A DNA stretch of 64,000 nt from Paramesorhizobium endophyticum (GTDB lineage: Bacteria; Pseudomonadota; Alphaproteobacteria; Rhizobiales; Rhizobiaceae), in the NCBI RefSeq assembly GCF_014640615.1, contig NZ_BMHH01000001.1, forward strand, positions 62,001 to 126,000. Reading direction: 5' to 3'. This document shows positions 5,636 through 59,650 of the stretch, piece after piece (position 1 is the first letter of the stretch; the number at the start of each line of letters is the position of its first letter). Under the pieces are notes generated by a model. The model did no database searches, was not told where the DNA came from, and was given only the letters and a program-made list of their open reading frames with translations. The position numbers and the translations under genes are program-made.

Positions 5636-7465
5636 TCAATCCTCCCGCAAACTGGAAATCATGGCCCCGAAAGCCGGATCGGCCTTATCGGCGATGGCGA
5701 CGATCCGTCCCTCCTCCACGAGGGCGATGCGGTCGGCGCATTCCGCCTCGCGCCGCTTGTGCGTGGCGATGAGCAGAGTCCTGCCCCGTGCCTTTGCCGC
5801 GAGACGGGTGAGCACATCCTTCGCCGTCGCAGCGTCCAGCCCCTCGGTCGGCTCGTCGAGGAGCCAGAGCGGCGTATCGCGCAGGAACAGCCGGGCAAGC
5901 GCCAGACGGCGCGACTGTCCGCCGGAGAGGCCCATTCCGCCCTCCCCCAACCGGTTGTCGAGGCCATGGGGCAGCGCCCTGATGGTTTCGGCAAGCCCGG
6001 CATCATCGAGCGCCGCCCATAGCGCGGCGTCATCGGCGGCGGGGTTGGCGAGCAGGAGGTTCTCCCGCACACTGTCCTGGAAAAGCTCGGTGCGCTGGGT
6101 AACGAGAGTCGCCGGCAGCGCGGCCACCGTGCCTGACAGAGGCGCGATCTCGCCTGACAGTATGGCCAGCAGCGTGGACTTTCCTGCGCCGCTCGCGCCG
6201 ACCAGAGCGAGCTTTTCACCCTGTAGGATGTCGAGAGAGACGCCTTGGAGCACCGGTTTCTCCGCGCCGTGATGGTAGGCGGTGACGGAGATGAGGCGGG
6301 CGGCGGGCGCTTCGGATTGCCCCTCACCCTTACCCTCTCCCCGTAAGGACGGGGAGAGGGGGGCATCCGCGTTGCCGCTTTTGCCTGCACCCTCAGCGCT
6401 GCAAGATGAGGCGGCGACATCAAGGCCCCCCTCTCCCCGCATGCGGGCAGAGGGTAAGGGTGAGAGGCAAGCGGAAGAGTGTTCCGTTTCCGTCAGTCGT
6501 GGCCCCAGCCTCTGCGCGGCGAGCGCGGTGCGGCCGAGTTCCATCGCGCCGCGTCGCAGGGCGGCGAAGGGCTCCATCGCACCGAGCGCGACGAGCAGGC
6601 CGAGTGCGGCGACCGGCGCGCCGATGGTTCCCTTGTCGGCAAGCACGGCCATGGCGACGAGCGTGCCTGAAAGCAGCAGCGCGCCCGCGAGGCCGAAGCC
6701 GAAGGAAACCCGCGTGTCGATCCGGTTGAGACTGTCATCGGCTTCGCTGAGACGGCGGTCGGCATAGGCGATGGCTTCCGCCTTGGCGGCGAGACGTCCG
6801 GCCATGACGAGTTCGGTCTGCCCGGCGACGAGATCGATGGCGCGGGCGCGCAGGGCTTCCACCGCCTTGGCGCGGCGGCGCATCGGCTTTTGGGCTGAAA
6901 TCGCGGCTATTACTGGAAGGCCGAGCCCTACGAGGAGCAGCAGCGCGGCGATGGCGACACCTGCTAGCGCCGACATGAAGAAGAACGCGATGCCCGCGGC
7001 CAGCGCCGTGGCAAGTGCGGCTCCGGCAGGCACCAATACCCGCAGGTAGAGCGAATCCAGTGCGTCGATATCGGCGGTCAAGCGAAAGAGAAGCCGCGCG
7101 GGGCGCATCAGGAGGTCATGCGCGGCGCCGGGGGCGGCCCAGGCGCGGAAGAGCCTTTCCCGTAGAGCAGCGAGCACCGCGAGCGTAGCGTCATGGGTGA
7201 CGAGCCGCTCGCCATAACGCGCGCCGGTGCGGGCGAGCGCGAGGAAGCGAATGCCGGCGGCGGGCGCGAAGACATCGAAGGCGAAGGCGGTAGCGGCGGA
7301 CATTCCGGCAATCGCCGTGGCGGTGATGAACCAGCCGGAAAGCCCCAATAGCGCGATACCGGCCAAAACCGTGCTTGCAGCGAGGACCATGCCTGATAGC
7401 ATCATGCCGCGCCGCTCGCATGAGAAAAGGGAGAGAACCGGGCGAAGATGGCGGATGGTGTTCAT
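5636..7465 (-). CDS. cydC: Thiol reductant ABC exporter subunit CydC
   Basis: With CydD this forms the heterodimeric ABC exporter needed for cytochrome bd maturation; the E. coli pair exports cysteine/glutathione to the periplasm. The N-terminal half holds about six membrane helices (GIALLGLSGWFITATAIAG onward). The C-terminal half is an ATPase with Walker A GASGAGKST, signature LSGGQSRRLALARL and Walker B LWLLDEPTEG. At 609 residues it is roughly 50 longer than usual. The excess is a palindromic element encoding residues 333-383, placed exactly between the membrane and ATPase domains. It starts three bases after the cydD stop, with its Shine-Dalgarno GGAAGGAGG inside the cydD end. Confidence 0.94.
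   Translation of the reverse strand: MNTIRHLRPVLSLFSCERRGMMLSGMVLAASTVLAGIALLGLSGWFITATAIAGMSAATAFAFDVFAPAAGIRFLALARTGARYGERLVTHDATLAVLAALRERLFRAWAAPGAAHDLLMRPARLLFRLTADIDALDSLYLRVLVPAGAALATALAAGIAFFFMSALAGVAIAALLLLVGLGLPVIAAISAQKPMRRRAKAVEALRARAIDLVAGQTELVMAGRLAAKAEAIAYADRRLSEADDSLNRIDTRVSFGFGLAGALLLSGTLVAMAVLADKGTIGAPVAALGLLVALGAMEPFAALRRGAMELGRTALAAQRLGPRLTETEHSSACLSPLPSARMRGEGGLDVAASSCSAEGAGKSGNADAPLSPSLRGEGKGEGQSEAPAARLISVTAYHHGAEKPVLQGVSLDILQGEKLALVGASGAGKSTLLAILSGEIAPLSGTVAALPATLVTQRTELFQDSVRENLLLANPAADDAALWAALDDAGLAETIRALPHGLDNRLGEGGMGLSGGQSRRLALARLFLRDTPLWLLDEPTEGLDAATAKDVLTRLAAKARGRTLLIATHKRREAECADRIALVEEGRIVAIADKADPAFGAMISSLRED
6318..6469. repeat. Family B palindromic element inside cydC
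   Basis: The outer arms TGCCCCTCACCCTTACCCTC (from 6318) and its complement ending 6469 enclose two smaller CTCCCC/GGGGAG hairpins. On the minus strand it is read in frame as about 50 residues starting CLSPLPSARMRGEGG and ending RGEGKGEGQ. Related copies are at 8133, 43750 and 59501. Confidence 0.9.
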
Positions 7466-7468
7466 GGC

Positions 7469-9418
7469 TCAGGCCCTCCTTCCGGCGTCCAGCCTGACGA
7501 GCCGGTCCATGCGCAGGGCAAGGGCCGGGTCATGGGTCGCGACAACAAGCGTTTTTCCCTTGGCCAGCGCGAGCAGGCTGTCCATGACCTTCAAGGCTGT
7601 CTGGTGATCGAGATGGGCGGTCGGCTCATCGGCGAGGATGATCGCGGCCTCAGTGTTGAAGGCGGCACGGGCGAGCGACAGGCGCAGCGCCTCGCCACCG
7701 GAAAGGCCGATGCCGCTTTCGCCCAGCGCCGCGCGGTTCCTGATAACATCGGTGAGGTTTGCCGCTTCCAGCGCCGCTTCGATTTCAGCCTCGCCGCCGT
7801 CGCGTCCGAGGGTGATATTGGCCTCAGCGGAACCCGCGAAGATATGCGGCTTCTGTCCCACCCAGGCCATGCGGGCGCGGATATCCGCCGCCGTTTCGGG
7901 GAGAAAGGGGGGGCCGCAGAGGGTGATATTCCCCTCTTCCGGGATCACAAGCCCCCCCATCAGCGCCAGCAAGGTGGACTTGCCGCAGCCGCTCGGCCCC
8001 CAGAGGGCGACATGTTCGCCGGGGGAGACGGTGAGGTTAAAATTGTCGAACAGAGGGGTGTCGCTGCCGGCGTGGCGGAAGCGGAGGTTGGTGAGGTGGA
8101 GGGCAGCTTGCCCCTCACTCACTCTAGCAGGTTGCCCCTCACCCTTACCCTCTCCCCGCGCGCGGGGAGAGGGGGACACGGACGTTTCCGTCTCGTTCTT
8201 CTGCCGGGTGCAGGGGAAAAAGGACGAAGACGCGACGTTGACGCCCCCCTCTCCCCGTTCTTTACGGGGAGAGGGTAAGGGTGAGGGGCAAAATTGTGCT
8301 GCGTCGCTCACCATGGCCGCCCCCTCCCCCCCCAGCACCTCAAGCGCTTTTATCGCCGCCTCGCCCGAGGCTCGGTCGTGCCAGACAGCGGAGAGATCGC
8401 GCAGGGGTTCGAAGAAGGCGGGGGCGAGGAGCAGGATGAAGAAGCTTTCCGGCAGCGTCAGCTTGCCGCCCCAGGCGCCGAAATCGAGCTGGCCGAGAAG
8501 GTGAAAGCCGGTATAGACCGCGACCATGGCGACGCCGAGCGCGGAGAAAAGCTCAAGCACCGCCGACGACAGAAAGGCGATGCGCAGCACGACCATGGTG
8601 CGCCGGCGCAGACTTTCCGCGTTGTTCCGCAGGCGGTGGGCGGTCAGGTCGACGGCGTCGAAGGCGCGGATGGTGGAAAGCCCGCGCAGGCGGTCGAGCA
8701 GAAAGCCGTTCATGCCGCCAAGCTCCGCCAGTTGCGCCTCGCTCGCGGCTTTTGCGCGCCAGCCGATCAGGGCCATGAAGACCGGTATCAATGGCGCGGC
8801 AACAAGAAGGATGAGCGCCGCCACCCAGGAAAACCACAGGACAACCGCAAGAATAACAAGCGGCACGACGCTCACCCGCTGCCGCACCGGCTGGAAGCGC
8901 GAGAGATAGGGAATGACCGCCTCGGCCTGTTCGGCGATGACGCTGGCAGCAAGGCCCGAGGCGGGACGGCTGTTATCAAGCGGCGAGCGGCGCATGAGGG
9001 CGCAAACCGCGCGCTCGCGCAGCACCGCAAGCGTCGCCCTCGCGGCTTTGAAGGCAATGCGGCTGCCGGCGGCGTCGAGCGCCGCGCGGATGATGCCAAG
9101 CATAAGCACGGCGATGGCGATCCAAGCCACCTGCGTGAGCGCGCCGCCCTTCATCACCAGCCCCAGCGCATAGGCCAGCAACCCCGCCTGCGGCAGCCAG
9201 AGCAGGGCAGCGCCGGTTTGCAGCACTGCACCTGCTCCGACTTTCATTCTTGGCTGGGCATGGACCTTGTCCGAAAACCGCTTCGCACTTTTCGGGGCCA
9301 TGCCTGTGGGAGACGATTCCGGTAAGGCTACGGCTTTCACCCGGACTGCTTCAGTCGCGCGGGTTTCGGCGGCAGCCTCGGGGGCGGCCACGAATTCGTT
9401 GGAGACAGCAATGGTCAC
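7469..9418 (-). CDS. cydD: Thiol reductant ABC exporter subunit CydD
   Basis: This is the partner of CydC in the periplasmic thiol-export ATPase. It is a half-transporter with membrane helices in about residues 65-330 and an ATPase domain with Walker A GPSGCGKST, LSGGEALRLSLARA and Walker B IILADEPTAH. At 649 residues it is longer than the family norm for two visible reasons. Residues about 40-55 (APKSAKRFSDKVHAQ) translate a RIME-like palindrome at 9257-9304. Residues about 377-429 translate a family B element at 8133-8290, between the two domains. The ATG at 9418 overlaps the stop of the upstream regulator gene (ATGA), implying translational coupling. Met58 could be an alternative start that excludes the first insert. 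Confidence 0.94.
   Translation of the reverse strand: MTIAVSNEFVAAPEAAAETRATEAVRVKAVALPESSPTGMAPKSAKRFSDKVHAQPRMKVGAGAVLQTGAALLWLPQAGLLAYALGLVMKGGALTQVAWIAIAVLMLGIIRAALDAAGSRIAFKAARATLAVLRERAVCALMRRSPLDNSRPASGLAASVIAEQAEAVIPYLSRFQPVRQRVSVVPLVILAVVLWFSWVAALILLVAAPLIPVFMALIGWRAKAASEAQLAELGGMNGFLLDRLRGLSTIRAFDAVDLTAHRLRNNAESLRRRTMVVLRIAFLSSAVLELFSALGVAMVAVYTGFHLLGQLDFGAWGGKLTLPESFFILLLAPAFFEPLRDLSAVWHDRASGEAAIKALEVLGGEGAAMVSDAAQFCPSPLPSPRKERGEGGVNVASSSFFPCTRQKNETETSVSPSPRARGEGKGEGQPARVSEGQAALHLTNLRFRHAGSDTPLFDNFNLTVSPGEHVALWGPSGCGKSTLLALMGGLVIPEEGNITLCGPPFLPETAADIRARMAWVGQKPHIFAGSAEANITLGRDGGEAEIEAALEAANLTDVIRNRAALGESGIGLSGGEALRLSLARAAFNTEAAIILADEPTAHLDHQTALKVMDSLLALAKGKTLVVATHDPALALRMDRLVRLDAGRRA
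8133..8290. repeat. Family B palindromic element inside cydD
   Basis: TGCCCCTCACCCTTACCCTC from 8133 is matched by its complement ending at 8290, with inner CTCCCCGCG-CGCGGGGAG and CTCCCCG-ACGGGGAG hairpins. It is read in frame on the minus strand as [16 protein letters not shown]...[10 protein letters not shown] second short copy of the terminal TTGCCCCTCAC occurs at 8108-8118, perhaps a trace of insertion. Confidence 0.9.
9257..9304. repeat. RIME-like palindrome (family A variant) inside the 5' end of cydD
   Basis: GGCATGG at 9257-9263 and CCATGCC at 9298-9304 flank TCCGAAAACCG / CACTTTTCGG. The element lies within codons about 39-54 of cydD, without a stop in frame. A shorter relative is at 47098-47146. 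Confidence 0.75.
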
Positions 9419-9999
9419 GCGCTTTCACCGTCCTTCTTGCGGGACTGGCGGCTCTTGCCGAAGGAGACGATGCGGTCCTTCGCCTCCAGGAAGCGTGTCA
9501 CCTTCGCGCCCAGCGCCAGCAGGGTCGCGAGCCGGTCGGTGTCGAGCTGCTTCACGTCGTCATACCAGTTGGTCAGTTGCTCGATGAGCCCGTACATGTC
9601 CTGCATCCGGCTCTGCGCGTATTGCTCGGTCTCACTGGCGGGCCGCTGCATCAGGATTTCGCGCAGCACCGTCATGGTCGGGTCGATCTCGCGCTTCTTG
9701 CGCTCCTCGGCCAAGGTGCGCAGGATTTGCCAGACATCGTCGGGGGTGGTGAAGAAATCGCGCCGGTCGTTCGGCAGATGCTTCAGCACCACGAGGTTCC
9801 AGCCCTGCAACTCCCGCAGCCCCATGGAGACGTTGGAACGCGAGACGCCCAGCGCATCGACGATCTGGTCGGCGCAGAGCGGCTCGGGCGAAACATAAAG
9901 CAGCGCATAGATCTGCCCGACCGTGCGGTTGATGCCCCACCGACTGCCCATTTCACCGAAATGCAGCACGAAGGACTGAACGATGGGGGGAAGGTCCAT
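9415..9999 (-). CDS. GbsR/MarR-family transcriptional regulator, first gene of the cyd operon
   Basis: The 194-residue winged-helix protein reads WGINRTVGQIYALLYVS, LCADQIVDALGVSRSNVSMGLRELQ and NDRRDFFTTPDDVW, the GbsR-type MarR helix-turn-helix and wing. A helical C-terminal half suits dimerisation. The start at 9999 follows GGAAGAGAG. The longer upstream reading has no support. It overlaps cydD by four bases, so it is translated with the oxidase-assembly genes and most likely controls them and itself through the inverted repeat at 10017-10034. GbsR in Bacillus senses choline. The ligand here is unknown, and a redox or thiol signal would fit the context but is speculation. Confidence 0.88.
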   Translation of the reverse strand: MDLPPIVQSFVLHFGEMGSRWGINRTVGQIYALLYVSPEPLCADQIVDALGVSRSNVSMGLRELQGWNLVVLKHLPNDRRDFFTTPDDVWQILRTLAEERKKREIDPTMTVLREILMQRPASETEQYAQSRMQDMYGLIEQLTNWYDDVKQLDTDRLATLLALGAKVTRFLEAKDRIVSFGKSRQSRKKDGESA

Positions 10000-10016
10000 G
10001 ACACTCTCTTCCGAAG

Positions 10017-10034
10017 TTTCAGTAATTTCTGAAA
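10017..10034. promoter_or_regulatory. 18-bp inverted repeat, putative operator of the cyd operon
   Basis: TTTCAG (10017-10022), TAATTT, CTGAAA (10029-10034) is a perfect 6+6+6 dyad, 17 bases upstream of the regulator start codon. Its size and symmetry suit a dimeric MarR-type protein, making autoregulation the simplest reading. Confidence 0.55.
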
Positions 10035-10289
10035 TCTCAATAAGCCCGAATTTGCGCGATAGCAAGCAATTTGCAAAAATTTCAGGGCTATCCGGGACGT
10101 TTCGCCGCATAAGGGGTGTTTTGTAGCCAAGCGCAGATGCGTGGCATCCCTCCTCCCGGAATTTCCTCAAATGGGCATAGCCTCGCCGCCACACCCTGCC
10201 AAATCACGGGTGTTCACGATCGGCAGACGAGGAAATAGAGTCTGTCAGAGTTCAACTGACACGCTGTGAAGAAAAGGCGCGGAGTCCTG

Positions 10290-10401
10290 CCGTCATCCTC
10301 GGGCGTGTCCCGAGGATCTGCCATAAGAAAAAGAATAAGCGATTACCGTCCTGACAGATTAAGCCACGGCAGATTCTCGGGACAAGCCCGAGAATGACGG
10401 C
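10290..10401. repeat. Palindromic repeat (family F) in the gap between the cyd and mrp operons
   Basis: CCGTCATCCTCGGG at 10290 is answered by CCCGAGAATGACGG ending near 10401, each with a nested CTCGGG/CCCGAG hairpin. The 10035-10482 gap contains this element and the cyd promoter region. I see no gene in it. Confidence 0.7.
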
Positions 10402-10482
10402 GAGAGGGGCGCTGTTTCAAGCTGGTTCTGACAGATACTCGTGCGATCGGCAAACCAGCTTGGGCAGCGCAAGGGGGCGCCA

Positions 10483-10827
10483 TCAGCGTCTCTTGCGGCT
10501 TTTCGGGAGGCCGTCTTTTGGCGGATTGCGGTATAGAGCCGCGCGGGTGAGCAGCATCAGGGCGACGGGGGTGGTGACCATGATGAAGAAACCGATCAGC
10601 ACGTCATGCAGGACAAGCCCGCCATCGCGCACCGAGAAAAAGACGATCGAAGCAAGCAGGATGCAGCTTGCGCCCCAGCTTGCCCCCATGGCCGGGGCGT
10701 GAAGGCGGTCGTAGAACGTCTTGAAACGGAGAAGGCCGATCGCGCCGACCAACGTGATGGCCGCGCCCATGAGCAGGAGGAACGCCGCCAGCAGCGCCGC
10801 CCAGAGGGGAAGATCCGCGCCCGTCAT
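10483..10827 (-). CDS. mrpG: Mrp/Pha cation:proton antiporter subunit G
   Basis: This 114-residue membrane protein has three predicted helices and the MrpG pattern GAIGLLRFKTFYDRLHAPAMG followed by GLVLHDVLIGFFIMVTTPVALMLLTRAALYR. The tail is basic (KSRKRR). It is the last gene of the operon and its ATG overlaps the mrpF stop. MrpG is a small accessory subunit of the multi-subunit antiporter that exchanges Na+ or K+ for H+ and supports pH and salt tolerance. Confidence 0.95.
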   Translation of the reverse strand: MTGADLPLWAALLAAFLLLMGAAITLVGAIGLLRFKTFYDRLHAPAMGASWGASCILLASIVFFSVRDGGLVLHDVLIGFFIMVTTPVALMLLTRAALYRNPPKDGLPKSRKRR

Positions 10828-11105
10828 TCGATCACCTCCCCGCGCATGAGGAATTTGGCGAGCGCCAGCGTGGAGACGAAACTCAGGAGGCTGATGATCA
10901 GCGCCGCCTCGAAAAAGAGCGTGCTGCCCGTCCTGATGCCGAGCGTGACGAGCAGAAGCATGGCCCCGATATAGAAGGCGTCCATGGCGAGGACACGGTC
11001 CGCCGCGCGCGGCCCGATGAAGAGCCGGATGAGCGCGAGCGCCATCGCGGCGACCAGCATCATCTGCGCCGCCAGAAGCGACCAGGAGAGAATGGCAGCG
11101 CTCAT
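10824..11105 (-). CDS. mrpF: Mrp/Pha cation:proton antiporter subunit F
   Basis: A 93-residue, three-helix subunit with the typical segment IRLFIGPRAADRVLAMDAFYIGAMLL (GP-x-x-DRV-x-A-D) and a short acidic tail. It overlaps mrpG by ATGA at 10824-10827 and mrpE by four bases at 11102-11105, showing tight translational coupling. It is required for assembly of the Mrp complex in the inner membrane. Confidence 0.95.
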   Translation of the reverse strand: MSAAILSWSLLAAQMMLVAAMALALIRLFIGPRAADRVLAMDAFYIGAMLLLVTLGIRTGSTLFFEAALIISLLSFVSTLALAKFLMRGEVIE

Positions 11106-11596
11106 TCGTCTGTCTCCTCGAACATGTCGCGGAGCGGACGCTCATAGCGCTCCTGGATCAGATCGCGCCAATATCGCTCGTCCTCCATGTCGAGCACATG
11201 GACGAGCAGTTCTCCGCTTCGCGCGCTGTAGCCGACCCATGCCGTGCCCGGCATGGCGTTGAGAATGACGGACAGGACGGCGAGCCCGGTGGGATCGCGC
11301 AGGGCAAGGGGAACGCGCATGAAGGCGGATCTTGGCGTCCTTCCCGGCGTCAGAATGAGACGAGCGGCATCGATGTTCGAGCTTATGCCGTCCATGAAGA
11401 CACGGGCGAAAAGGACCGGGGCAAGGCGCCAGCGCCGGACATGCGGCTTCGACGGCTCCAGCACCCGCATGGTCCATGAGGCGAAAATGGCGATGATGGC
11501 GCCGAGCAGCATGTCGCCGGTGGAAACGCCGTTCAGCAGCAGCCACATGACGAACAGCGACAGGGCGAGCAGCGGATATGGCAGGATGGGCGTCAT
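11102..11596 (-). CDS. mrpE: Mrp/Pha cation:proton antiporter subunit E
   Basis: This 164-residue protein has two or three N-terminal helices and a cytoplasmic domain with NAMPGTAWVGYS, the conserved MrpE NS-x-PGT-like motif, then LLVHVLDMEDERYW. It is coupled to mrpD by a four-base overlap and to mrpF downstream. MrpE helps complex assembly and may contact the antiporter-like subunits. Confidence 0.95.
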   Translation of the reverse strand: MTPILPYPLLALSLFVMWLLLNGVSTGDMLLGAIIAIFASWTMRVLEPSKPHVRRWRLAPVLFARVFMDGISSNIDAARLILTPGRTPRSAFMRVPLALRDPTGLAVLSVILNAMPGTAWVGYSARSGELLVHVLDMEDERYWRDLIQERYERPLRDMFEETDE

Positions 11597-39224: not shown

Positions 39225-39383
39225 ACCCCCCTCTGTCCTGCCGGACATCTCCCCCTCAAGGGGGGAGATTGGCCGACATGACGACCATCGCACCTTTTGC
39301 AACGTCTGCGATTGGTACCAAACGCCGATGAAGGCGTGATCTCCCCCCTTGAGGGGGAGATGCCCGGCAGAGCAGAGGGGGGT
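39225..39383. repeat. Palindromic repeat (family C), copy 1
   Basis: ACCCCCCTCTGTCCTGCCGG on the left is answered by CCGGCAGAGCAGAGGGGGGT on the right, with inner ATCTCCCCCTCAAGGGGG hairpins in each half. It fills the gap between iolB and the TIM-barrel gene. Copy 2 is at 48300-48455. Confidence 0.85.
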
Positions 39384-41196: not shown

Positions 41197-43032
41197 TCAG
41201 TTTACGAGTCTTTGCCGGGCCGCCGCTTCGAGATAGCGCGCATAGGCCTGTTTCAGCTTGTCGGTGCTTCCGACTTCCGGCACGGCGACGTCCCACCACC
41301 AGCCGGCATCGCCGAAGCCGGGGCCTTCGCTCGGGTCGGTGTCGATGACAATGACGGTCGGGATATCGCGCCCGCGCGCGGCGGCGATTTGTGCTTCGAG
41401 ATCGGGAATGTCCTTGGCCTTGACCGCAAATACGCCCATGGACGCGGCATGGGCGACGAAGTCGATGCGGGGCTGCTCGACGATGTTGCAATCCCTGTAG
41501 AGGTTGTTGAACGGCTCGCCGCCGCTGGCCTGCTGGAGACGGTTGATGCAGCCGAAGCCTCTGTTGTCGGTGAGCACCACCGTGAACGGCACCTTGCGCA
41601 TGACCGCGGTCGCCAGCTCCGAATTCGCCATCATATAGGAGCCGTCGCCGACGAAGCAGATCACCTCACGCTCGGGCCGGGCGAGTTTGAGGCCCATGGC
41701 TCCGGCAATCTCATAGCCCATGCAGGAATAGCCATATTCCATGTGATAGCCGCCCTGGCTTGCCTGCCAGAGCAGCTTCAGCGCGCCGGGCATCGTTCCT
41801 GCCGCGCACATGGCGATGGCGTTTTCGCCGGTTGCACGCTGCACCGCGCCGATGATTTGCGCATCGGTCGGCAGGCCATCGCCATCAGGCGCGGCGCAAT
41901 GGCGGACCACGGCGGCGAGCCATTCGGTCCTGAGGGAGTCGCCGGACGCGGGGGCGCGGTGATCGCCCAGAAGCTCGCTGAAAGCCTGCAAGGCAACCTT
42001 GGCGTCGGCCACGAGGCCGATCGCGCCGTGCTTGTCCGCATCATAGCCCTGCACATTGATGGAGACGAGCTTCACATCATCGGCCTCGAACAGCGACCAG
42101 GAGCCGGTAGTGAAATCCTGAAAGCGCGTGCCGATGCCGATGACCAGATCCGCCCTGCGGGCGAGCGCATTGGCGGCGGCGGAGCCATCGACGCCCGCCG
42201 CGCCGAAATTCATCGGATGGGCCTGCGCCAGTGCGGATTTGCCCGCTTGCGTTTCCACGACGGGAATGGCGTGGCGGGTGGCGAAGCCGGCCAGTTCCTG
42301 CTCTGCCTCGCTATAGATCACCCCGCCGCCCGCGACGATTACCGGGCGCCTGGCGGCGCGGATGAGGGCGGCGACATCGGCAAGGTCACGCCGGTCCGAC
42401 TCCGGCCTGCGGATGCGCCAGATTTTCGGCTCGAAGAAGGCTTCCGGCCAGTCATAGGCCTCCGCCTGCACATCCTGGCAGAAGGACAGCGTTACCGGGC
42501 CGCAATTGGCGGGGTCGGTCATGACGCGCAGCGCGCGCGGCAGAGCAGTCAGGAGTTGCTCCGGCCTGACGATGCGGTCGAAATAGCGACTCACCGGGCG
42601 GAAGCAATCATTGGCCGAAACGGTGCCGTCGCCGAAATCTTCCACCTGCTGGAGCACGGGATCGGGCCTGCGGTTGGCGAAGACATCGCCGGGAATGAGC
42701 AGCACCGGCAGGCGGTTGACATGGGCGAGCGCCGCCGCCGTCACCATATTGGTCGCGCCGGGGCCGATGGAGGACGTGACGGCCTGCACCCGGCGGCGCT
42801 TCATCGCCTTGGCATAAGCGATGGCGGCGTGCGCCATGGTCTGCTCGTTCTGGCCGCGCCAGGTGGGCAGGCTGTTGCCTGCCTCCTGCAAAGCTTGTCC
42901 AAGACCCGCGACATTGCCATGGCCGAAAATCGCCCATACGCCATCGACGAAGCGCTCACCGTCTTCCGTCATCTGGGCGGAAAGCCATTTCACCATGGCC
43001 TGCGCCGCCGTAAGCCTTACTACCGTGCTCAT
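41197..43032 (-). CDS. iolD: 3D-(3,5/4)-trihydroxycyclohexane-1,2-dione hydrolase
   Basis: This 611-residue thiamine diphosphate enzyme opens the ring to 5-deoxy-glucuronate. It has the N-terminal ThDP pattern ([53 protein letters not shown]), the central Rossmann part, and the C-terminal [16 protein letters not shown]...NRGFGCI ThDP/Mg-binding motif. The ATG at 43032 overlaps the iolCJ stop (ATGA). Its length is normal. Confidence 0.97.
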
Positions 43033-45116
43033 GCTGCCTGCTCCTTCTTCCGCGCCGCATCCCACACATCGCAAAGCCTCATGTAGCGCGCCGCCATGTC
43101 CTCGATAGCCGCTTCATCGCCGATCTCGCCCGCGAACCAGCGCCGCGCCGCATCGGCGAAAATGGTGCGGCCGACGGCGAAGCCCTTCACGAGCGGGAAT
43201 TTGGCCGCGACCGCAAAACTCGCGGCAAGCTCGGCCTCCGGCGCGTCCAGCCCCAGCACGAGGATGCCGCGCGTGTGTCGGTCATGCGCCTCGATGGCGG
43301 CGATGGCGTTCTGCCAACCGGCTTCCGTCTTCATCGGTTCCAGCTTCCACCAGTCGGGGTAGATGCCTGCCGCGTAGAACTGGTGGATCAAGGTCGCGAC
43401 CGTCATGTCGTCGGTGGGGCCGACCTTGGAGGGGATGATCTCAGCCAAAAATTCCAGCCGGTTGCGCCGCGCCGCCTCGAAGAGCCGCTTCACCGTTGCC
43501 TCTTGCGCGGCGCGGGTGGGAACATCGTCGTCCGGGTGGCAGAAGCAAAGGATTTTCACCACCTGCTCGCGCGCCCATTCGACAAGCCCGCCGCAATCGG
43601 AACCGAGTTCCGGTTCGAGCGTGAGAGGACGCGAGCCCGGCCATTCCGCCGGACGGCCGATCCAGAGCCCGGTGCCGGAGGCGCGGTGCAGCGCCGAGCG
43701 GCCGATACGGTTGTCGCAGAGGATGCCATAGCCCTCGGAGGTGGTGGACTGCCCCTCACCCTTACCCTCTCCCCGTGAATTACGGGGAGAGGGAGGCGTC
43801 AGCGTTGACGCTTCTTTCTGTTCTGCTGTGCCTGGCTCAATGGATAGGGCATCAGCGTGGATGCCCCCCTCGCCCCGCGAGCGGGGAGAGGGTAAGGGTG
43901 AGGGGCAATGCGCCGCCTGCACGCGGAGCGCTGCGTCGAGGCAGAGTTCCTTGAAGGCCGCGCCCTTTTCCGGCGTGTAGCCCGGCATATCCTCGAGTTG
44001 CTTGCGGTGGTCGAAGGCGAAGACGCGCATGGTCGACCAGTCGCCATTGACCCGTGTATGGCGCGTAGTGGACCAGTGAAGCTGCTCCAGCTCAGGGTCA
44101 TTGCGAAGATCGGGACGCTTGACGCCTCGTTTCAGGAAGAACTGCAATTCCTCCCAGCTGGGATAGGCCGGGGTGCAGCCATGGCGGCTGACGGCGAAAG
44201 CGCCGCAGGCATTGGCGTATTTCAGCGAGGTGGGCCAGTCCGCTCCGGTCAGCCAGCCGCGCAGAAGCCCGGCGAAGAAGCCATCGCCCGCGCCCAGCAC
44301 GTTGAACACCTCTATCCGGAACGCCTCTCCGCTTTGACCCTTGTCGAGGCTATCGGGAATCTCGCCCTCGAAGGCAACGGCTCCAAGCGGCCCGCGCTTG
44401 CAGACCAGCGTTGCGCCGCTCACCTCCCGAACCGCCTTCAGCGCCGCCAGCGTATCGGTCGAGCCGCCTGCGATATGGAGTTCTTCTTCCGTGCCGACGA
44501 TCAGGTCGAAATAATGCAAGCTTGATTGCAGCTTGGCGGTGACTTTCCCGCTCTCGACAAACCGGCTTTCGCCATCGCCATGGCCCGCGACACCCCACAG
44601 GTTCGGGCGATAATCGATGTCGAGTGCGGTCTTGAGGCCGTGCTTGCGGGCGAGCTTCAGCGCCTTGATGCTTGCGGCCTCCGTGCGCGTGTGGGAGAGA
44701 TGCGTTCCGGTGACTACGAGCGCACGGGCCGATGCGATGAAACTTTCATCGATATCGTCCTCGCAGAGCGCCATGTCGGCGCAGTTCTCGCGGTAAAAGA
44801 TCAGCGGAAACTGCTTGTCGTCGCGGATGCCGAGAATGACGAGAGCGGTGAGCCGTTCCGGGTCTGTCCTGACGCCTTGCGTGGAGACGCCTTCGCGGGC
44901 AAGCTGCTCAAGGATGAAGCGGCCCATATGCTCGTCGCCCACGCGTGTGATCAGCGCGGATTTGAGGCCGAGCCGCGCCGCGCCGCAGGCGATGTTGGTG
45001 GGCGAGCCGCCGATATATTTCTCGAACGAGCCCATATCCTCCAGCCGTCCGCCAACTTGCGTGCCATAGAGATCGACGCTGGCGCGGCCTATGGTGATGA
45101 CGTCGAGGGGCTTCAT
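43029..45116 (-). CDS. iolC: Fused 5-dehydro-2-deoxygluconokinase / DUF2090 (IolJ-like aldolase) protein
   Basis: In this 695-residue bifunctional protein, residues 1 to about 325 are a PfkB-family kinase: [44 protein letters not shown] and the ATP/anion-hole motif [16 protein letters not shown]. Residues about 340-695 form a DUF2090 domain ([16 protein letters not shown]..., [42 protein letters not shown]) thought to cleave the phosphorylated product to malonate semialdehyde and DHAP. The fusion is usual in rhizobia. What is odd is a family B palindrome (43750-43907) encoding residues about 404-456 within the DUF2090 domain, between [14 protein letters not shown] and [11 protein letters not shown]. 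The start overlaps the dehydrogenase gene stop (45113-45116). Confidence 0.95.
43750..43907. repeat. Family B palindromic element inside iolC
   Basis: TGCCCCTCACCCTTACCCTC from 43750 and its complement ending 43907 enclose CTCCCCGTGAATTACGGGGAG and CGCCCCGCGAGCGGGG hairpins. On the minus strand it is read open as [15 protein letters not shown]...[10 protein letters not shown], the same frame as in cydC and cydD. Confidence 0.9.
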
Positions 45117-51723: not shown

Positions 51724-51783
51724 ATGTGGCTGGCCTCACCCACTTTCAATTCCCGCAATCCAAAATACATAAGGGGCTTGGAA

Positions 51784-51817: not shown

Positions 51818-51892
51818 CGTGACAGGCACGCAAAACCCATCCGGAAAACACTGTTTCCGCAAAAGCCGACTCCGAAAGCGACAGCGCAAGAT

Positions 51893-52525: not shown

Positions 52526-52878
52526 AAATAACCCAGGCGTTCACCTTCGAGGCCGCGCATCGGCTGCCGAATGTTCCCCCGACGCACCGCTGCCATCGCA
52601 TGCACGGCCATTCATACCGGGTCGAGCTTCAGCTCGAAGGGTCTGTCGATCCGAAAACCGGCTTCGTCATCGATTTTTTCGATGTGGAGAAGGTGTTCGG
52701 GCCGGTTCTGGCGCAGCTCGACCATCATACGCTCAACGATGTGCCGGGGCTGGAAAACCCGACAGCGGAGCATATCGCCGTCTGGATATGGAACAGGGTA
52801 AAGCCCCTTCTCCCCGAATTAAGCCTCGTCAAAATATTCGAAACACCGCTTTCCTGGGCGGAATATGACGGCAAATAA
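52522..52878 (+). CDS. queD: 6-carboxy-5,6,7,8-tetrahydropterin synthase
   Basis: This 118-residue PTPS-family enzyme makes the QueE substrate from 7,8-dihydroneopterin triphosphate. Zinc ligands are His13 in FEAAHRL and the two in HGHSYRVEL. The catalytic Cys is in [10 protein letters not shown], and a further catalytic His in [19 protein letters not shown] near the C-terminus carries the substrate-binding Glu. It is translationally coupled to queE and 17 bases before queC. Confidence 0.96.
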
Positions 52879-52895
52879 GCCGGGGAGCATTTGAT

Positions 52896-53597: not shown

Positions 53598-53613
53598 TCC
53601 ACCGTCACGCTGG

Positions 53614-54357
53614 TCACTGCGCGAAGAAGGCAGCGGCCATGCCAAGGCCGACCAGCGTAATGAAGACGCGAAGCGCGTGCATGTTGGTGATGCGCCGCGC
53701 TACGAGCGCGCCGAGATAGCCCCCGATCGCGCAGGCCACGCCCAGGACGAGCGCCGATTTCCAGTCGATCAATCCGGCGACGGTATAGGTTATGACTGAA
53801 ACCAGCGAGAGTATGCTTGAAAGCAGGTTTTTAAGGCCGTTCATCTCGTGGAGATTGGTGAAGCCGACAAAGCCGAAGGCGGCGAGCAGCATGATGCCGA
53901 GGCCGCCATTGAAATAACCGCCATAGATCGACACCGCGAGGAGCAGCGCCAGCGAGGCGGGAAGCGGAAGCCTACCGCCCTTCCCTACCACATGCCTGAC
54001 CAATAAAGGCCCCGCCGCGAAAGCCACGGTCGCGAAGAGCAGCAGCCAAGGCACGAGGCTCACGAATATCTCTTTCGGCGTCACCAGCAAGAGAAGCGCG
54101 CCCATAAGCCCCCCGAGCACCGACAGGGCGATCATGGCGCGCAGGGAGACCGGGCCGTCCCTGCTGATGTCCTTGCGGAACCCCCAAGTGCTGCCGATAT
54201 AGCCGGGAAGCGCGGCGAGCGTGGCCGTGGCATTGGCCGGGATGTGAGGCACGCCGACAAACACCAGCGCCGGAAATGAAAGAAACGTGCCGCCGCCCGC
54301 GACAGCGTTAAGCGCGCCCGCGCCGAGCCCGGCGAGCACGAGAATGACGAAATCCAT
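53614..54357 (-). CDS. TauE/SafE family permease
   Basis: This 247-residue inner-membrane protein has about eight helices and the family features LGAGALNAVAGGGTFLSFPALVFVGVP near the N-terminus and IYGGYFNGGLGIMLLAAFGFVG in the middle (the repeated GGGxG motif). Members are proposed exporters of sulfite, sulfonates or other organic anions; the substrate is unknown. GGAGG precedes ATG 54357. It converges with queC and is divergent from the GH13 gene. Confidence 0.9.
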   Translation of the reverse strand: MDFVILVLAGLGAGALNAVAGGGTFLSFPALVFVGVPHIPANATATLAALPGYIGSTWGFRKDISRDGPVSLRAMIALSVLGGLMGALLLLVTPKEIFVSLVPWLLLFATVAFAAGPLLVRHVVGKGGRLPLPASLALLLAVSIYGGYFNGGLGIMLLAAFGFVGFTNLHEMNGLKNLLSSILSLVSVITYTVAGLIDWKSALVLGVACAIGGYLGALVARRITNMHALRVFITLVGLGMAAAFFAQ

Positions 54358-54446
54358 GATGCCTCCTCCCAAGGCGAATAGCCCGATTTGATGGAATCAA
54401 CCGGGCGTCCCTCCCCCCGCACTGTCTTATCCCAAAAGCCCTCAAC

Positions 54447-54472
54447 GGAACAAACCGTTCCGCTCACCAGTT
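54447..54472 (+). promoter_or_regulatory. EcfG-like promoter of the GH13 gene (imperfect)
   Basis: GGAAC at 54447-54451, 17 bases, then AGTT at 54469-54472 resembles the EcfG consensus with one mismatch in the -10 element. It is 32 bases before the ATG. The -35 lies in an inverted repeat CGGAAC/GTTCCG. Stress control of trehalose-type enzymes by EcfG is common, but this match is weaker than that at 26233. Confidence 0.4.
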
Positions 54473-54504
54473 TCTTACATGCTGGACGGATGAACGGAGA
54501 GAAT

Positions 54505-56160
54505 ATGGCAAAGCGGAACAGTCAGTCGCCGTGGTTCTTGAACAGCGTCATCTACGGCATCGACATCAAGAAGTTCCAGGACAGCAATGGCGACGGTGTC
54601 GGCGACATCCGCGGCCTTTGCGACCGGCTGCCTTATCTCCACGATCTGGGCGTCGACTGCCTCTGGCTGCTTCCCTTCTTCGAAAGCCCGAGGGAAGACA
54701 ATGGCTATGATGTCAGCAATTATTACGGCATCGACCCCGAGCTCGGCACGCTCGACGATTTCATCGAGCTGGTGCGCCGCGCCGGGGAGCTGGGCATAAA
54801 AATCGTCATAGACCTCATCGTCAACCATACTTCCCGCAAACATCCGTGGTTCGAAAGCGCCCGGCGGGACCCGCGCAGCCAGTTCAGGGATTATTATGTC
54901 TGGAGCGAGCACATACCGGATGTCGGCGCGAGCGAGACGTCGATCTTTCCCGGCGCCGACAACCCGCTTTGGACGTTCGACAAGGTCGCCAGCGCCTTTT
55001 ATTTCCACAAATTCTACGCCTCCCAGCCCGAGCTCAACACCGCAAACCCTGATGTGAAGGCGGAAATCCGGCGCATCTGCGATTTCTGGCTTTCGCTTGG
55101 CGTTAGCGGCTTCCGGATCGACGCCCTGCCGCTGCTTCTTACCGATAATGGGAAGGAGCATGCCAATCCCGGCGACGGTCAGGCCTTCATGGAGGAACTC
55201 GCCGATTTCATCACCGGCCGGCTGCCCGAATGCCTGCTCCTGGGCGAGGCCAACGTTCAGCCGGACGAGATGCGCCAGTATTTCGGGAGCGGCAACCAGA
55301 TCCCGCTACTGTTCAATTTCCGCTTAAGCTGCGGGATATTCGCCGCCATCGCCCGGCAAAACGCCGACCCGTTCGAGGAGATGCTCGCCGCCCTCCCCGA
55401 GCCGCCCGCCGGGTGCGGATGGGTGAACTTCCTGCGCAATTTCGACGATTTCGACCTGTCGCAAATACCGCAATCCATGCGCGACTTTCTGCTGGAAGCC
55501 TATGCACCCGAGGAGGAGATGGGCATTTTCGGGCGCGGCATCCGCCGTCGGCTGGCGCCGATGCTGGACGGCGACCGGCGGAAGATCGCCCTCGCCTTCA
55601 GCTGCATATTCTCGATGCGCGGCTCGCCGCTTTTCGTGGCCGGTGACGAGATCGGCCTGGGCGAAGACTTGACCGCCAACGGCCGGGACGCCGTGCGCCT
55701 GCCGATGGCGTGGGAGCCCGGCGGAAAGGCGGGCGGTTTTTCCACCGCGCCCGTCAAGGATCTGATCCAGCGGCCCTTAAGCTCCGGACCGTTTTCGTTT
55801 CACGAGGTAAATGTCGAAAACCAGCGCGCGGATGAAAAATCGCTGCTCAACGAGGTGCGCCGTCTCATCCGGCATCGCCGCGATCTCAAGCATTTCCGCG
55901 GCGGGCGCTTTGTGCAATTCGCGCCTGATAATGACGCGACCATGCTTCACGGCTTTCACGACGGCTCGTCGGTCCTCCTCATCGCCCATAATTTCTCCGG
56001 CAAGCCTGCGGAATTTTCCGCCGGCCTCACCGGCATCATCGCACCTCGCCTCGAAACCATATTGGGGGCGCAGGAGCGGCTTACCGTCGAGGGCGACCGG
56101 CTTACCATGAAGCTGCCGGCCCATGGCTATTGCTGGCTTTGCACCGAAGGGAGCCGCTGA
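54505..56160 (+). CDS. GH13 (trehalose synthase-like) glycoside hydrolase family protein with altered region IV
   Basis: This 551-residue protein is most like the maltose/trehalose-interconverting GH13 subfamily: YGIDIKKFQDSNGDGVGDIRGL, region I DLIVNHTS, region II GFRIDALP with nucleophile Asp206, region III LLLGEAN with acid/base Glu248, and IRRRLAPMLDGDRRKIALAF. Region IV, normally LRNHDE, reads LRNFDD: the stabilising Asp314 is kept but the His is Phe313. The active-site change suggests altered specificity or poor hydrolysis. Start 54505 has GGAGAG. The stop overlaps the LLM oxidoreductase start by one base, implying a functional pair. Confidence 0.88.
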   Translation: MAKRNSQSPWFLNSVIYGIDIKKFQDSNGDGVGDIRGLCDRLPYLHDLGVDCLWLLPFFESPREDNGYDVSNYYGIDPELGTLDDFIELVRRAGELGIKIVIDLIVNHTSRKHPWFESARRDPRSQFRDYYVWSEHIPDVGASETSIFPGADNPLWTFDKVASAFYFHKFYASQPELNTANPDVKAEIRRICDFWLSLGVSGFRIDALPLLLTDNGKEHANPGDGQAFMEELADFITGRLPECLLLGEANVQPDEMRQYFGSGNQIPLLFNFRLSCGIFAAIARQNADPFEEMLAALPEPPAGCGWVNFLRNFDDFDLSQIPQSMRDFLLEAYAPEEEMGIFGRGIRRRLAPMLDGDRRKIALAFSCIFSMRGSPLFVAGDEIGLGEDLTANGRDAVRLPMAWEPGGKAGGFSTAPVKDLIQRPLSSGPFSFHEVNVENQRADEKSLLNEVRRLIRHRRDLKHFRGGRFVQFAPDNDATMLHGFHDGSSVLLIAHNFSGKPAEFSAGLTGIIAPRLETILGAQERLTVEGDRLTMKLPAHGYCWLCTEGSR

Positions 56161-57125
56161 TGATCATCGGCTACCATGCCTCCCACGAACAATTCACCCC
56201 GCGGGATCTTGTGCATTATGCCCGACTCGCCGAGGCGAGCGGCTTCGATGCCGTCATGTCCTCGGACCATTTCGCGCCATGGAGCGAGGCCCAGGGCCAA
56301 TCCGGCTTTGCCTTGAGCTGGCTCGGCGCGGCGATGCAGGCGACGACGACCATTCCCTTCGGACTCATCACCGTGCCCTGCGGCTGGCGCTATCACCCCG
56401 CCATCACCGCGCAGGCGGCGGCGACAATCTGCGATCTCTTCCCCACCCGCTTCCCATGGCTGGCGGTGGGCAGTGGGGAGAGGCTGAACGAACATGTGGT
56501 CGGCCAGGGCTGGCCGGCGAAGGCGGAGCGCAACGAGCGGCTCGTCGCGGCCGTTTCCATCATGCGGCGCTTGTGGAACGGCGAAACCGTGACGGAGGAG
56601 ACGCCCATTCCGGTGGATGCCGCACGCCTTTTCACGCTGCCACCCAAACCGCCTGCTGTCATCGCCGGGGTGCTTTCCGCCGAGACTGCCCGCTGGGCCG
56701 GAGGCTGGGCGGACGGCCTCATAACGGTCAACCAGTGCCCTTCGAGCCTCCACGATATACTCAGCGCTTTCGACGAGGGCGGCGGGGCAGGCAAGCCGCG
56801 CTTTCTGCAACTCCACCTCTCATACGGCGCGACGCTGGAGGAGGCCAGCCTCCATGCGTTTCGCCAGTGGAAAAGCAACGCCATAAATGCCGACACGGCG
56901 GAGAATACGGGGCTTACCGAGGATTTCGACCGTCTTTCCGCCGATGTCTCGATCACGGAGCTGGAAAAGCACGTGCAGATATCCGCGAACCCGCGCCAAC
57001 ACGCCGACATGATCGCCGCCTATGCCGCGCTGGGTTTCGACGAGATCTACCTGCACAATGTGGGGACGAACCAGGCGGAGTTTATCGAGGTTTTTGGGAG
57101 AGATGTCCTACCGAAGCTGAGGTAA
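56160..57125 (+). CDS. LLM-class flavin-dependent oxidoreductase (TIGR03885-like)
   Basis: This 321-residue luciferase-like TIM barrel begins MIIGYHASHEQFTPRDLVHYARLAEASGFDAVMSSDHFAPWSEAQGQSGFALSWLGAAMQAT and has LAVGSGERLNEHVVGQGWPAKAERNERL. From memory this is the group described as probable non-F420 (FMN-type) flavin oxidoreductases. The substrate and even the chemistry are unknown. The start at 56160 is within the GH13 stop (TGATG), so the two proteins are made together. Its partner suggests action on a sugar or sugar-derived compound, which is inference. Confidence 0.9.
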   Translation: MIIGYHASHEQFTPRDLVHYARLAEASGFDAVMSSDHFAPWSEAQGQSGFALSWLGAAMQATTTIPFGLITVPCGWRYHPAITAQAAATICDLFPTRFPWLAVGSGERLNEHVVGQGWPAKAERNERLVAAVSIMRRLWNGETVTEETPIPVDAARLFTLPPKPPAVIAGVLSAETARWAGGWADGLITVNQCPSSLHDILSAFDEGGGAGKPRFLQLHLSYGATLEEASLHAFRQWKSNAINADTAENTGLTEDFDRLSADVSITELEKHVQISANPRQHADMIAAYAALGFDEIYLHNVGTNQAEFIEVFGRDVLPKLR

Positions 57126-57140
57126 GGCGGGGCCGTCAAA

Positions 57141-58703
57141 TTACTCCCACTCGATCGTGCCGGGAGGTTTCGAGGTCACATCATAGACGACGCGGTTGAT
57201 GCCCTTGACTTCGTTGATGATGCGGGTGGCAGTGCGGGCGAGGAATTCCATGTCGAAATGGTAGAAATCCGCCGTCATGCCGTCCACGGAGGTCACCGCG
57301 CGCAGGGCGCAGACATATTCATAGGTGCGGCCGTCGCCCATCACGCCCACGGTCTGGACCGGGAGCAGCACGGCGAAGGCCTGCCAGATCACGTCGTAGA
57401 GCCCGGCCTTACGGATTTCGTCGAGATAGACTGCGTCGGCATTGCGTAGGATTTCCAGCTTTTCGCGGGTGATGCCGCCGGGGCAGCGGATGGCGAGGCC
57501 GGGGCCGGGGAACGGGTGGCGGCCGATGAAATGGTCGGGGAGGCCTAGCTCGCGGCCCAGCTCGCGCACTTCATCCTTGAAGAGCTCGCGCAGCGGCTCA
57601 ACCAGCTTCATGTTCATGCGCTCGGGCAGGCCGCCGACATTGTGGTGCGACTTGATCGTCACCGAGGGGCCGCCGGTGAAGGAGACGGACTCGATCACGT
57701 CGGGATAGAGCGTGCCTTGCGCCAGGAAATCCGCGCCGCCGATCTTCTTCGCCTCTTCCTCGAACACTTCGATGAAAAGGCGTCCGATGGTCTTGCGCTT
57801 CTTCTCCGGGTCGGTCTCGCCTTCCAGCGCGCCGATGAACAGGTCCGAAGCATCCACATGCACCAGCGGGATGTTGTAATGCTCACGGAACATGGCGACC
57901 ACTTCCTGCGCCTCGTTCTTGCGCATCAGGCCGTGGTCGACGAAAATGCAGGTGAGCTGGTCGCCGATGGCCTCGTGGATCAGCACGGCGGCGACGGAGG
58001 AATCGACCCCGCCCGAAAGGCCGCAGATGACCCGGCCCTTGCCGACCTGAGCGCGGATCGCCGCGATGGCCTGCTCGCGATAGGCGGCCATGGTCCAGTC
58101 GCCCTTGATGCCGGCGATGTTGTGAACGAAATTCTGCAGGAGCTTTGCGCCGTCGGGAGTGTGGACGACTTCCGGGTGGAACATGATGCCGTACATCTTG
58201 CGCGCTGGATTGCCGAATACGGCGAAGGGCGCACCTTCCGACTTGCCGAAAATCTCGAAACCATCAGGCAGCGAAACGACGCGGTCGCCATGGCTCATCC
58301 AAACCTGATGGCGTGTGCCTTCAGCCCAGACGCCTTCGAACAGTGGGCAGCTTTTTTCAATCTCGACAAAGGCGCGGCCGAACTCGCGATGGTCAGAGCT
58401 TTCTGCTACGCCGCCCATCTGGACGCACATGGTCATCTGCCCGTAGCAGATGCCCAGCACGGGAATGCCGGCCTCGAAGACGATCTGCGGCGCGCGTGGG
58501 CTGCCGATCTCGGTGGTGGAGGCAGGGCCGCCGGAGAGGATCACCGCCTTCGGCTTGATGCGGTGAAAGCCTTCCTCGGCGGACTGGAAGGGGACGATCT
58601 CGGAATAGACGCCGGCTTCGCGGACACGGCGGGCGATAAGCTGCGTGACCTGGCTGCCGAAATCGATGATGAGGACGGTGTCGGGGTGTGCTGTGGTGCT
58701 CAT
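57141..58703 (-). CDS. guaA: GMP synthase (glutamine-hydrolysing)
   Basis: This 520-residue enzyme makes GMP from XMP, glutamine and ATP. The N-terminal class I amidotransferase has [16 protein letters not shown] with the nucleophile Cys, and [12 protein letters not shown] with His and Glu. The ATP pyrophosphatase domain has [21 protein letters not shown]. The dimerisation domain ends [18 protein letters not shown], the universal GuaA C-terminus. Its length is normal. It is single-gene and convergent with the LLM oxidoreductase gene, 15 bases apart. Confidence 0.98.
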
Positions 58704-58815
58704 GCGCAGCGTCTAGAGAAAAAGGTCGCCGAATGCAATGGTCAAACGGGCCTTCCTGACAGGTGATGTCAGGAGGCGAGCGCTTCTTCAACAGGGTTGA
58801 GCAAGCCGTTCATTT

Positions 58816-59472
58816 TTAGCCGCATGATCTTGCCCGAAAAGTCTGCAACTTTTCGGGATCATGCTCCAGCGCCTCTTCCAGCCGGCCCACGGCGAGCGCC
58901 AGCTTCTCGTCGATGATGTGGAGATATTCCGTCCAGTCCTCGATGCGGCCGAGCTCCGCGACACCATCGGAAATGCCGCGCAGGCCGATGAGCGGCACAT
59001 TAAAGCGCTGGCAGGCGCGCAGGACGGCGAAGGTTTCCATGTCGACCATATCGGCGTCGATGGCGTCATAGGCCGCGCCGGAAACGATGTTCGCGCCGGT
59101 GGAAAGCGTGGCTTGCGGGACGCCGGGGATGCGGTATGGCAGCGGCAGGATGGCGGGCAAGTCGAGGAACGGCGTCCGGCCCTTCTCGAAGCCCAGAGGC
59201 GAGGCGTCCATGTCGCGGTAGGAGACGTGGGTGGCCTGATACACCTCGGCCTGCTCTAGCGAGCGCGAACCAGCGGAACCGAGCGAGACGACGAGATCGG
59301 GCAGGCTGTTGTTTGCGGCGAGGCTGGTGAGGGTGGAGGACAGCACCACGGCGGCTTCCACAGGGCCGATGCCGGTCGTCAAGGGCTGGAACAGCTTGCG
59401 CAGATGCGGGCCATATTCCGGCTCGGCGGCCATGACGAAGAGGATTTTGCGGTTGGCGATGGGGGTGATCAT
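58816..59472 (-). CDS. mtnN: 5'-methylthioadenosine/S-adenosylhomocysteine nucleosidase
   Basis: This 218-residue purine nucleosidase (PNP_UDP_1 fold) has ILFVMAAEPEYGPHLRKLF, VSLGSAGSRSLEQAEVY, MVDMETFAVLRACQRFNVPLIGLRGISDGV with the substrate-binding Met-Glu and catalytic Asp. It hydrolyses MTA and SAH to adenine plus thioribose sugars. GAGGAGAAG precedes ATG 59472. The last 16 residues (after [22 protein letters not shown]) are encoded by a RIME palindrome, so the native C-terminus has been replaced or extended. The catalytic core looks untouched. Confidence 0.9.
   Translation of the reverse strand: MITPIANRKILFVMAAEPEYGPHLRKLFQPLTTGIGPVEAAVVLSSTLTSLAANNSLPDLVVSLGSAGSRSLEQAEVYQATHVSYRDMDASPLGFEKGRTPFLDLPAILPLPYRIPGVPQATLSTGANIVSGAAYDAIDADMVDMETFAVLRACQRFNVPLIGLRGISDGVAELGRIEDWTEYLHIIDEKLALAVGRLEEALEHDPEKLQTFRARSCG
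58822..58864. repeat. RIME-type palindrome (family A) forming the 3' end of mtnN
   Basis: GCATGATC...GATCATGC with the same GAAAAGTCTGCAACTTTTC core as at 35805. It is read in frame into mtnN and followed by the TAA at 58816-58818. Confidence 0.85.
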
Positions 59473-59500
59473 GCTACTTCTCCTCGGCCACGTGGTGGAA

Positions 59501-59650
59501 TGCCCCTCACCCTTACCCTCTCCCCGCAAGCGGGGCGAGGGGGACATGGATGTTGCGCCTCTTTTTATGCCAGGCGAAGGGTAGAAAAAAGTACTCCAAC
59601 GACGGCGCCCCCCTCGCCCCGCTTGCGGGGAGAGGGTAAGGGTGAGGGGC
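59501..59650. repeat. Family B palindromic element between mtnN and rsmB
   Basis: TGCCCCTCACCCTTACCCTC from 59501 and the complement GGTAAGGGTGAGGGGC ending at 59650 enclose CCCCGCAAGCGGGGCGAG and CCCCGCTTGCGGGGAGAG hairpins. The right end coincides with the rsmB stop codon (59650-59652). Confidence 0.9.

Follow-up and report, generated by a model that had tools for sequence, protein, structure and literature searches.

How can a palindromic repeat lie within the reading frames of unrelated conserved proteins, and what decides where it persists? The question was raised by a 64-kb stretch of DNA (64,000 nucleotides, hereafter the window) from Paramesorhizobium endophyticum, in which an initial annotation had noticed four copies of a palindromic element, three of them read in one frame within cydC, cydD and iolC. 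We analysed these copies together with those found in the source genome (G000), in five other genomes of the genus (G001 to G005) and in more distant relatives.

Architecture of the element

All four copies lie where they had been placed, with ends that had been given correctly within a few bases (Table 1). The fourth copy is intergenic, unlike the three in-gene copies. The window contains 26 matches to CCCCTCACCC with at most one mismatch, against 4.9 expected, and this number was reached in none of 100 shuffles. The outer arms of each full copy pair together (CCCCTCACCCTTA / TAAGGGTGAGGGG). Just inside them are two short G+C-rich hairpins (CCCTCTCCCCG / CGGGGAGAGGG), which flank a weaker central palindrome, whose orientation is recognisable. 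In many copies the pairing extends outward through GTGGAATG / CATTCCAC or GCGGATAG / CTATCCGC. The outer arms of the cydD copy, 27 nt long and perfectly complementary, are terminal inverted repeats of the MITE type. The predicted folds are very stable: the z-score was -10.5 for the DNA of the iolC copy and -12.8 for the RNA of the cydD copy (-119 kcal/mol). A search of the window for structured RNA families of Rfam gave no match at the gathering score.

Table 1. Copies of the element and interrupted genes in the window
Feature	Position	Core	Strand	Remarks
Element copy in cydC	6317..6470	6320-6467 (148 bp)	.	in-frame read-through
Extra short element end (TTGCCCCTCAC) adjoining the cydD copy	8108..8131		.	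direct repeat
Element copy in cydD	8132..8291	8135-8288 (154 bp)	.	in-frame read-through
Element copy in iolC	43749..43908	43752-43905 (154 bp)	.	in-frame read-through
Intergenic element copy	59495..59652	59503-59649 (147 bp)	.	one side with longer GTGGAATG end
cydC with insert	5636..7465		-	609 codons; insert 51 residues by peptide; TIGR02868 CydC above cut-off
cydD with insert	7469..9418		-	649 codons; TIGR02857 CydD above cut-off
iolC (PfkB kinase + DUF2090) with insert at residues 403-460	43029..45116		-	NF047869 above cut-off

The short end fragment beside the cydD copy is possibly the relic of an earlier insertion or of a duplication. An RsmB/F-type methyltransferase gene takes its TAG stop codon (59650-59652) from the intergenic copy, at the end opposite the longer GTGGAATG one. 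For the gene that follows this copy, the start as listed falls within the element and should probably be placed further downstream. A copy of another palindrome family, with ISPSRGEI / SPLEGEM readings on both strands, is found at 39246-39362, where it is probably intergenic.

The extra residues and their empty sites

The cydC, cydD and iolC frames span their copies without a stop codon, and the phases of entry and exit are common to all three, as had been claimed. The length of about 50 added residues was likewise confirmed: by peptide the insert is of 53 residues in both CydD and IolC. In IolC approximately 58 residues have no counterpart in homologues.

Alignment with homologues showed that the flanks rejoin without the insert, and that the extra residues are absent outside the genus from IolC (28 of 28) and CydC (11 of 11). 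IolC matches at 1e-100 were found in 66 of 121 genomes of the family, and the alignment comprised 28 fetched loci from outside the genus. The gap between the helix and the strand that border the insert is about two residues in 27 of these and a few residues longer in one. For CydC, 13 of the 121 genomes gave matches, including the 11 from outside the genus. Within the genus the CydC site is empty in G002, G003 and G004. Two further proteins that carry the element in the source genome also have empty sites: PqqB in all five congeners (G001-G005), and the CAF17/YgfZ-like protein in four of the five (G002-G005) and in G020, a genome from outside the genus.

An assembly artefact was considered and ruled out. 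In a second genome of the genus (G001) iolC is interrupted at the same codon by an insert 95.5% identical, so the inserts cannot be ascribed to one assembly, and related genomes have other inserts.

Copy number and spread

The source genome (4.93 Mb in 83 contigs) contains 64 arm matches at two mismatches or fewer; the reversed control pattern gave none. They resolve to 35 copies, of which 30 are two-armed and the other five show a single arm of standard type. Three of the two-armed copies are single hairpins of 55 bp (L024 2300-2354, L026 2242-2296 and L033 2259-2313), which look as if the arms had recombined with loss of the middle. We also observed mosaic copies, in which one standard arm is combined with an arm of another type, CCCCTCATCCGCCTGCCGGCACCTTCTCCCCG (L017 from 3537 onwards, L023, and L254, the cydD gene of G002). 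The latter arm has only three matches in the source genome.

In a sample of 297 genomes of the family, at least one match (at most one mismatch) was found in 80 genomes and in 38 of 109 genera. Among the genomes listed, the highest counts on both strands, 85 in G001, 69 in G002 and 63 in G000, all belong to the same genus, and G005, of this genus as well, had no arm match at that threshold. A scan of named genomes gave at least 138 copies in at least 118 stretches; among the matches listed most come from Mesorhizobium, Aminobacter, Phyllobacterium, Nitratireductor and Labrys. Exact arm matches also occurred in contigs filed as Omnitrophota MAGs (L141, L151), possibly contaminating rhizobial contigs.

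In-gene copies in three genomes

A copy was counted as in-gene if an open frame crossed it with at least 60 codons on either side and if homology backed the host protein. The three copies first noticed stand by this count, and the total was too low: eight of the 35 copies of the source genome are in genes (cydC, cydD, iolC, pqqB, cobN, and the genes for a class II aldolase, a PxpB-PxpC-like fusion and the CAF17/YgfZ-like protein). The claim that one palindrome family lies in frame in unrelated proteins thus holds for eight genes of one genome. In G001 there are ten in-gene copies among 60 (cydC, iolC, aldolase, PxpB-PxpC-like, CAF17, a cobD/cobC-type decarboxylase, tilS, a nitrate reductase/formate dehydrogenase-type gene, dusB and coaBC), a tally that leaves out two single arm matches on contigs C8 and C11. 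Five in-gene copies were found in G002 (cydD, cobN, a cobD/cobC-type gene, cobG and an ATP-grasp protein gene) among 25 copies examined, a subset of those in this genome, where arm matches number 72.

In hosts other than IolC and CAF17, domain matches place the insert between domains or within a gap of a single profile. It lies between the two carboxyltransferase domains of the PxpB-PxpC-like protein, between the RHH segment and the flavoprotein domain of CoaBC, between the Fe4S4 and molybdopterin domains of the nitrate-reductase-type protein and between the membrane and ATPase parts of CydC and CydD. In the cobD/cobC-type gene the family profile resumes beyond the insert (44-266, then 276-360), and in dusB it continues past the insert below the cut-off. 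TilS and the ATP-grasp protein have a domain match on one side of the insert only.

Several other frames were rejected. In the S15-upstream (L025), FecCD (L020) and LysE (L018) frames, and in L284 of G001, the element is upstream of the domain, and these were left uncounted as interrupted genes. Long spanning frames with no domain match (e.g. L036, L033, L303, L286 and L222) were treated as spurious.

Among the listed frames that span copies in the named genomes, 20 pass a filter based on codon-position G+C, and several of these are probably spurious. Domain searches with nine of them backed hosts such as CobN in Aminobacter sp. HY435 and Mesorhizobium composti, xanthine-dehydrogenase-type proteins in three Mesorhizobium, XdhC, HrpB, an FtsY-type GTPase, an ATP-dependent DNA ligase (Roseitalea MAG) and the nitrate-reductase-type gene of P. 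phragmitis.

Reading frame, length class and broken genes

The exit phase was identical in all 18 two-armed in-gene copies and the entry phase in 17, the exception being the ATP-grasp protein of G002. The core length was 1 mod 3 in 17 of these 18 copies, but only in 14 of the 45 two-armed copies elsewhere (Fisher 3.5e-6); when each shared insert counts as a single event, it was so in 14 of 15 (3.5e-5). Seven of the two-armed in-gene copies differ in length from 154 bp, six of them by a multiple of three. These tests of length and phase are in part circular, since a copy was recognised as in-gene by the open frame that crosses it.

The three phases were open in 0%, 46% and 82% of 28 strand readings, taken from both strands of 14 other copies of the length class. 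Each of the 23 in-gene copies is free of stops in its host's frame. We attribute the shared frame mostly to the avoidance of stop codons combined with selection on the host gene. What is left is a modest excess of the shared phase (14 of 15 events, each shared insert taken as one), with a chance probability of about 0.01. The initial annotation had taken the shared frame as a sign of selection for readability. Outside genes the length class is not maintained, which gives no support to such selection acting on the element itself.

If the DNA of the element were left untranslated, by ribosomes hopping over the hairpin or by processing of the mRNA, an open frame and a length that changes in steps of three would both be superfluous. 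Both were found, although the argument is weakened by the use of the open frame for recognition. The very strong RNA hairpin of the cydD copy speaks for such bypassing, which has a precedent in palindromes described from Magnusiomyces mitochondria (PMC6649704). We regard an untranslated insert as most improbable.

A search for genes broken by a copy, using codon-position G+C, detected only 19 of the 23 copies known to be in-gene, and flagged eight of 97 others. Pfam found no match in any of ten pieces from six of the eight flagged copies, nor in the right side, which was the side tested, of the seventh (L011). In the eighth (L018) only the right side matches, with a LysE domain that lies downstream of the element. 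From these searches there appears to be no convincing gene broken by a copy; some could be missed.

Shared and probably repeated insertions

Oriented full copies from different genomes have a mean identity of 76.4% (1232 pairs, sd 4.7, 95th percentile 84.0). Three pairs of inserts exceed this background: besides iolC of G000 and G001, these are cobN of G000 and G002 (92.2%) and cobC of G001 and G002 (86.0%). Judged by identity, these three inserts are shared between the species of each pair. The CobN proteins of G000 and G002 are 95% identical, versus 89-90% to the rest, and the concatenated tree pairs G000 with G001. This conflict raises the possibility that a transfer of cobN brought the insert along.

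Other inserts at corresponding sites are close to the background: 76.1% for CydC, 76.1% for the aldolase and 80.3% for CAF17 (83.4% in the opposite orientation). The CydC and aldolase inserts are also offset by a few residues between the two species. As these inserts are no more alike than random copies, the simplest reading is that they probably arose independently; gene conversion between copies may be an alternative.

The same linkers also contain other palindromes. The linker between the membrane domain and the ATPase of CydD is empty only in G003. In G002 it holds a mosaic copy of the element, and in G001 and G004 (L253, L256) in-frame palindromes that by eye are unrelated to this family and to each other. 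The CobN site is occupied by the element in G000 and G002, by another palindrome at the same place in G001 and G004, and by short palindrome-like remnants in G003 and G005. The cobN gene of G000 (L019 5233-9408) has in addition a second in-frame insert, from a different palindrome family (...ISPTRGEIG...ISPLVGEMPGRAEGG), nearer the N terminus at approximately residues 220-270.

Constraint on the hosts and on the inserts

We compared pN/pS inside and outside the insert in eight pairs of host genes. Outside the insert the ratio was 0.17 in iolC, 0.10 in cobN, 0.25 in cobC and 0.21-0.41 in the other five pairs. Inside it was 0.95, 0.70, 0.45 and 0.45-1.46, respectively. These are crude counts over short inserts, in which the palindromic constraint complicates the synonymous sites. 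The host genes are under purifying selection, and the insert codons appear to be under relaxed constraint.

The low ratios of the host codons argue against the notion that the interrupted genes are decaying or dispensable and that the open frames are merely survivors on the way to pseudogenes. Decay would also leave unexplained that shared inserts stay in frame between species and that the hosts in G001 include tilS, dusB and coaBC, which are normally single-copy housekeeping genes. There are two signs in its favour. A cydC homologue of G003 has a shortened frame of 421 residues, and the source genome has a second, uninterrupted iolC (G000:C32:6992-8884), whose kinase part is 79% identical. 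Because of this paralogue the iolC insert of G000 might be sheltered; the single matching iolC of G001 bears the insert. As a general account we consider decay very unlikely.

In the AlphaFold2 model of IolC (25 sequences, mean pLDDT 83.5) residues 407-459, essentially the insert, have pLDDT values below 50. The insert lies between helix 382-403 and strand 463-466 of the DUF2090 domain. The best PDB matches of the model are IolC and related PfkB kinases, and cover the N-terminal half. The model of CAF17 (mean pLDDT 50) was too poor for use. The earlier suggestion that the peptide is disordered is therefore likely on the IolC model, a low-confidence loop in a confident fold.

Could the inserts have been domesticated, as flexible linkers, contacts or regulatory segments? 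The same linkers have been filled repeatedly, and by different palindromes, and three inserts are common to species and were kept, as would be expected of useful segments. Recurrence at loops is explained by tolerance alone, however, many congeners manage without the insert, and the pN/pS ratios are higher inside the insert (0.45-1.46) than outside (0.10-0.41). Domestication thus seems unlikely. A broader proposal is that, in this group of rhizobia, palindromes of unrelated families have time after time, and convergently, supplied disordered linkers to the same joints of CydC, CydD, CobN, CAF17 and the class II aldolase, and that some of the inserts have been kept across species as useful; this we hold to be doubtful.

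A repeat probably retained where it is readable and tolerated

The explanation that we consider highly probable is that the element is a non-autonomous, REP/MITE-like family, whose insertions into genes survive only if they are readable and tolerated. A high-copy palindromic repeat, with a core of approximately 154 bp and often with further palindromic ends, would have spread through the genome, most of its copies being non-genic. A copy that landed in a gene would persist only where the host protein keeps working. Such a copy would have to occupy an interdomain linker or a loop that tolerates it, and to be read in the only phase open on both strands. Reading through the copy would then add about 51-58 residues, rich in Pro, Ser, Gly and Arg and probably disordered. 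As tolerant sites would be few, insertions in different species would fall repeatedly in the same linkers, some of this family and some of unrelated palindromes. We infer the mobility of the element, its manner of moving and the retention of the peptide in the mature protein.

A transposase search (Y1_Tnp) found no mobilising enzyme in the source genome. The only match to PF01797 (Y1_Tnp), at G000:C7:54549-54905, has an internal TAG, and we read it as an IS200-like transposase by its short length. None of the 64 arm matches adjoins this gene. A REP driven by a RAYT (REPtron) was rejected on these grounds, a single Y1 transposase with an internal stop and no flanking element; another enzyme could serve.

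Prior discussion of in-frame palindromes has concerned mainly the obligate intracellular Rickettsia and Wolbachia. They are now seen in culturable, free-living soil bacteria and in enzymes that can be assayed. Since congeners offer empty, occupied and differently occupied linkers in such enzymes, the question whether the peptides are tolerated or useful becomes directly testable. The results are also a warning for annotation, as the extra residues of these proteins derive from repeats. If the palindromes do act as linker donors, palindromic selfish DNA would be a continuing source of new protein linkers.

Comparison with known palindromic repeats

Rickettsia palindromic elements (RPE) had been named as the known precedent. 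In the accounts in PMC10969869 and PMC2229807 they are palindromic repeats of approximately 100-150 bp, with several families per genome, found in frame in unrelated conserved genes and also between genes. The likeness stands: the rhizobial element too lies in frame within unrelated conserved genes. As the sole precedent RPE do not stand, since Wolbachia and several REP families are on record. The host here differs, being a free-living soil bacterium of the Rhizobiaceae with a G+C-rich genome. The sequence of the element is presumably unrelated to RPE. Because the element lies outside Rickettsia and was compared with RPE by description only, we do not file it as an RPE; it appears to work like RPE and is probably a separate family.

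Among rhizobial palindromic repeats, RIME and the Sm repeats are described in PMC2573895 as intergenic; compared by description only, the element family may be identical with one of them. We found no published account of this family inside rhizobial genes, in a search that covered few subscription journals and is weak evidence of absence. ERIC and the 107-bp MITEs of the Correia/NEMIS type are, according to PMC2229807, short and non-autonomous, have terminal inverted repeats and can fuse in frame to genes. They have recognisable TA target duplications, whereas none could be defined for the element, the empty sites being too diverged at the junctions.

Two further groups also occur within genes. 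The Wolbachia palindromic elements (WPE), compared by description only, are likewise in-frame genic palindromes outside Rickettsia (PMC2229807). Di Nocera et al. (2013, PMC3733652) reported that REP dimers lie within coding sequences in many species, Rickettsia among them; REP ends can supply TAG stop codons, and in recB different REPs are found at about the same site in two Xanthomonas species (PMC3733652). The GTAG/CGTC REPs have units of 20-40 bp, whose dimers encode 20-30 residues, whereas our element has nested hairpins in its longer core and encodes 51-58 residues; the comparison with the GTAG/CGTC families is by description. In-frame palindromes in genes are thus already on record outside Rickettsia, and this element family adds a rhizobial case. 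Its added interest is that among congeners the same linkers have been filled repeatedly by different palindromes.
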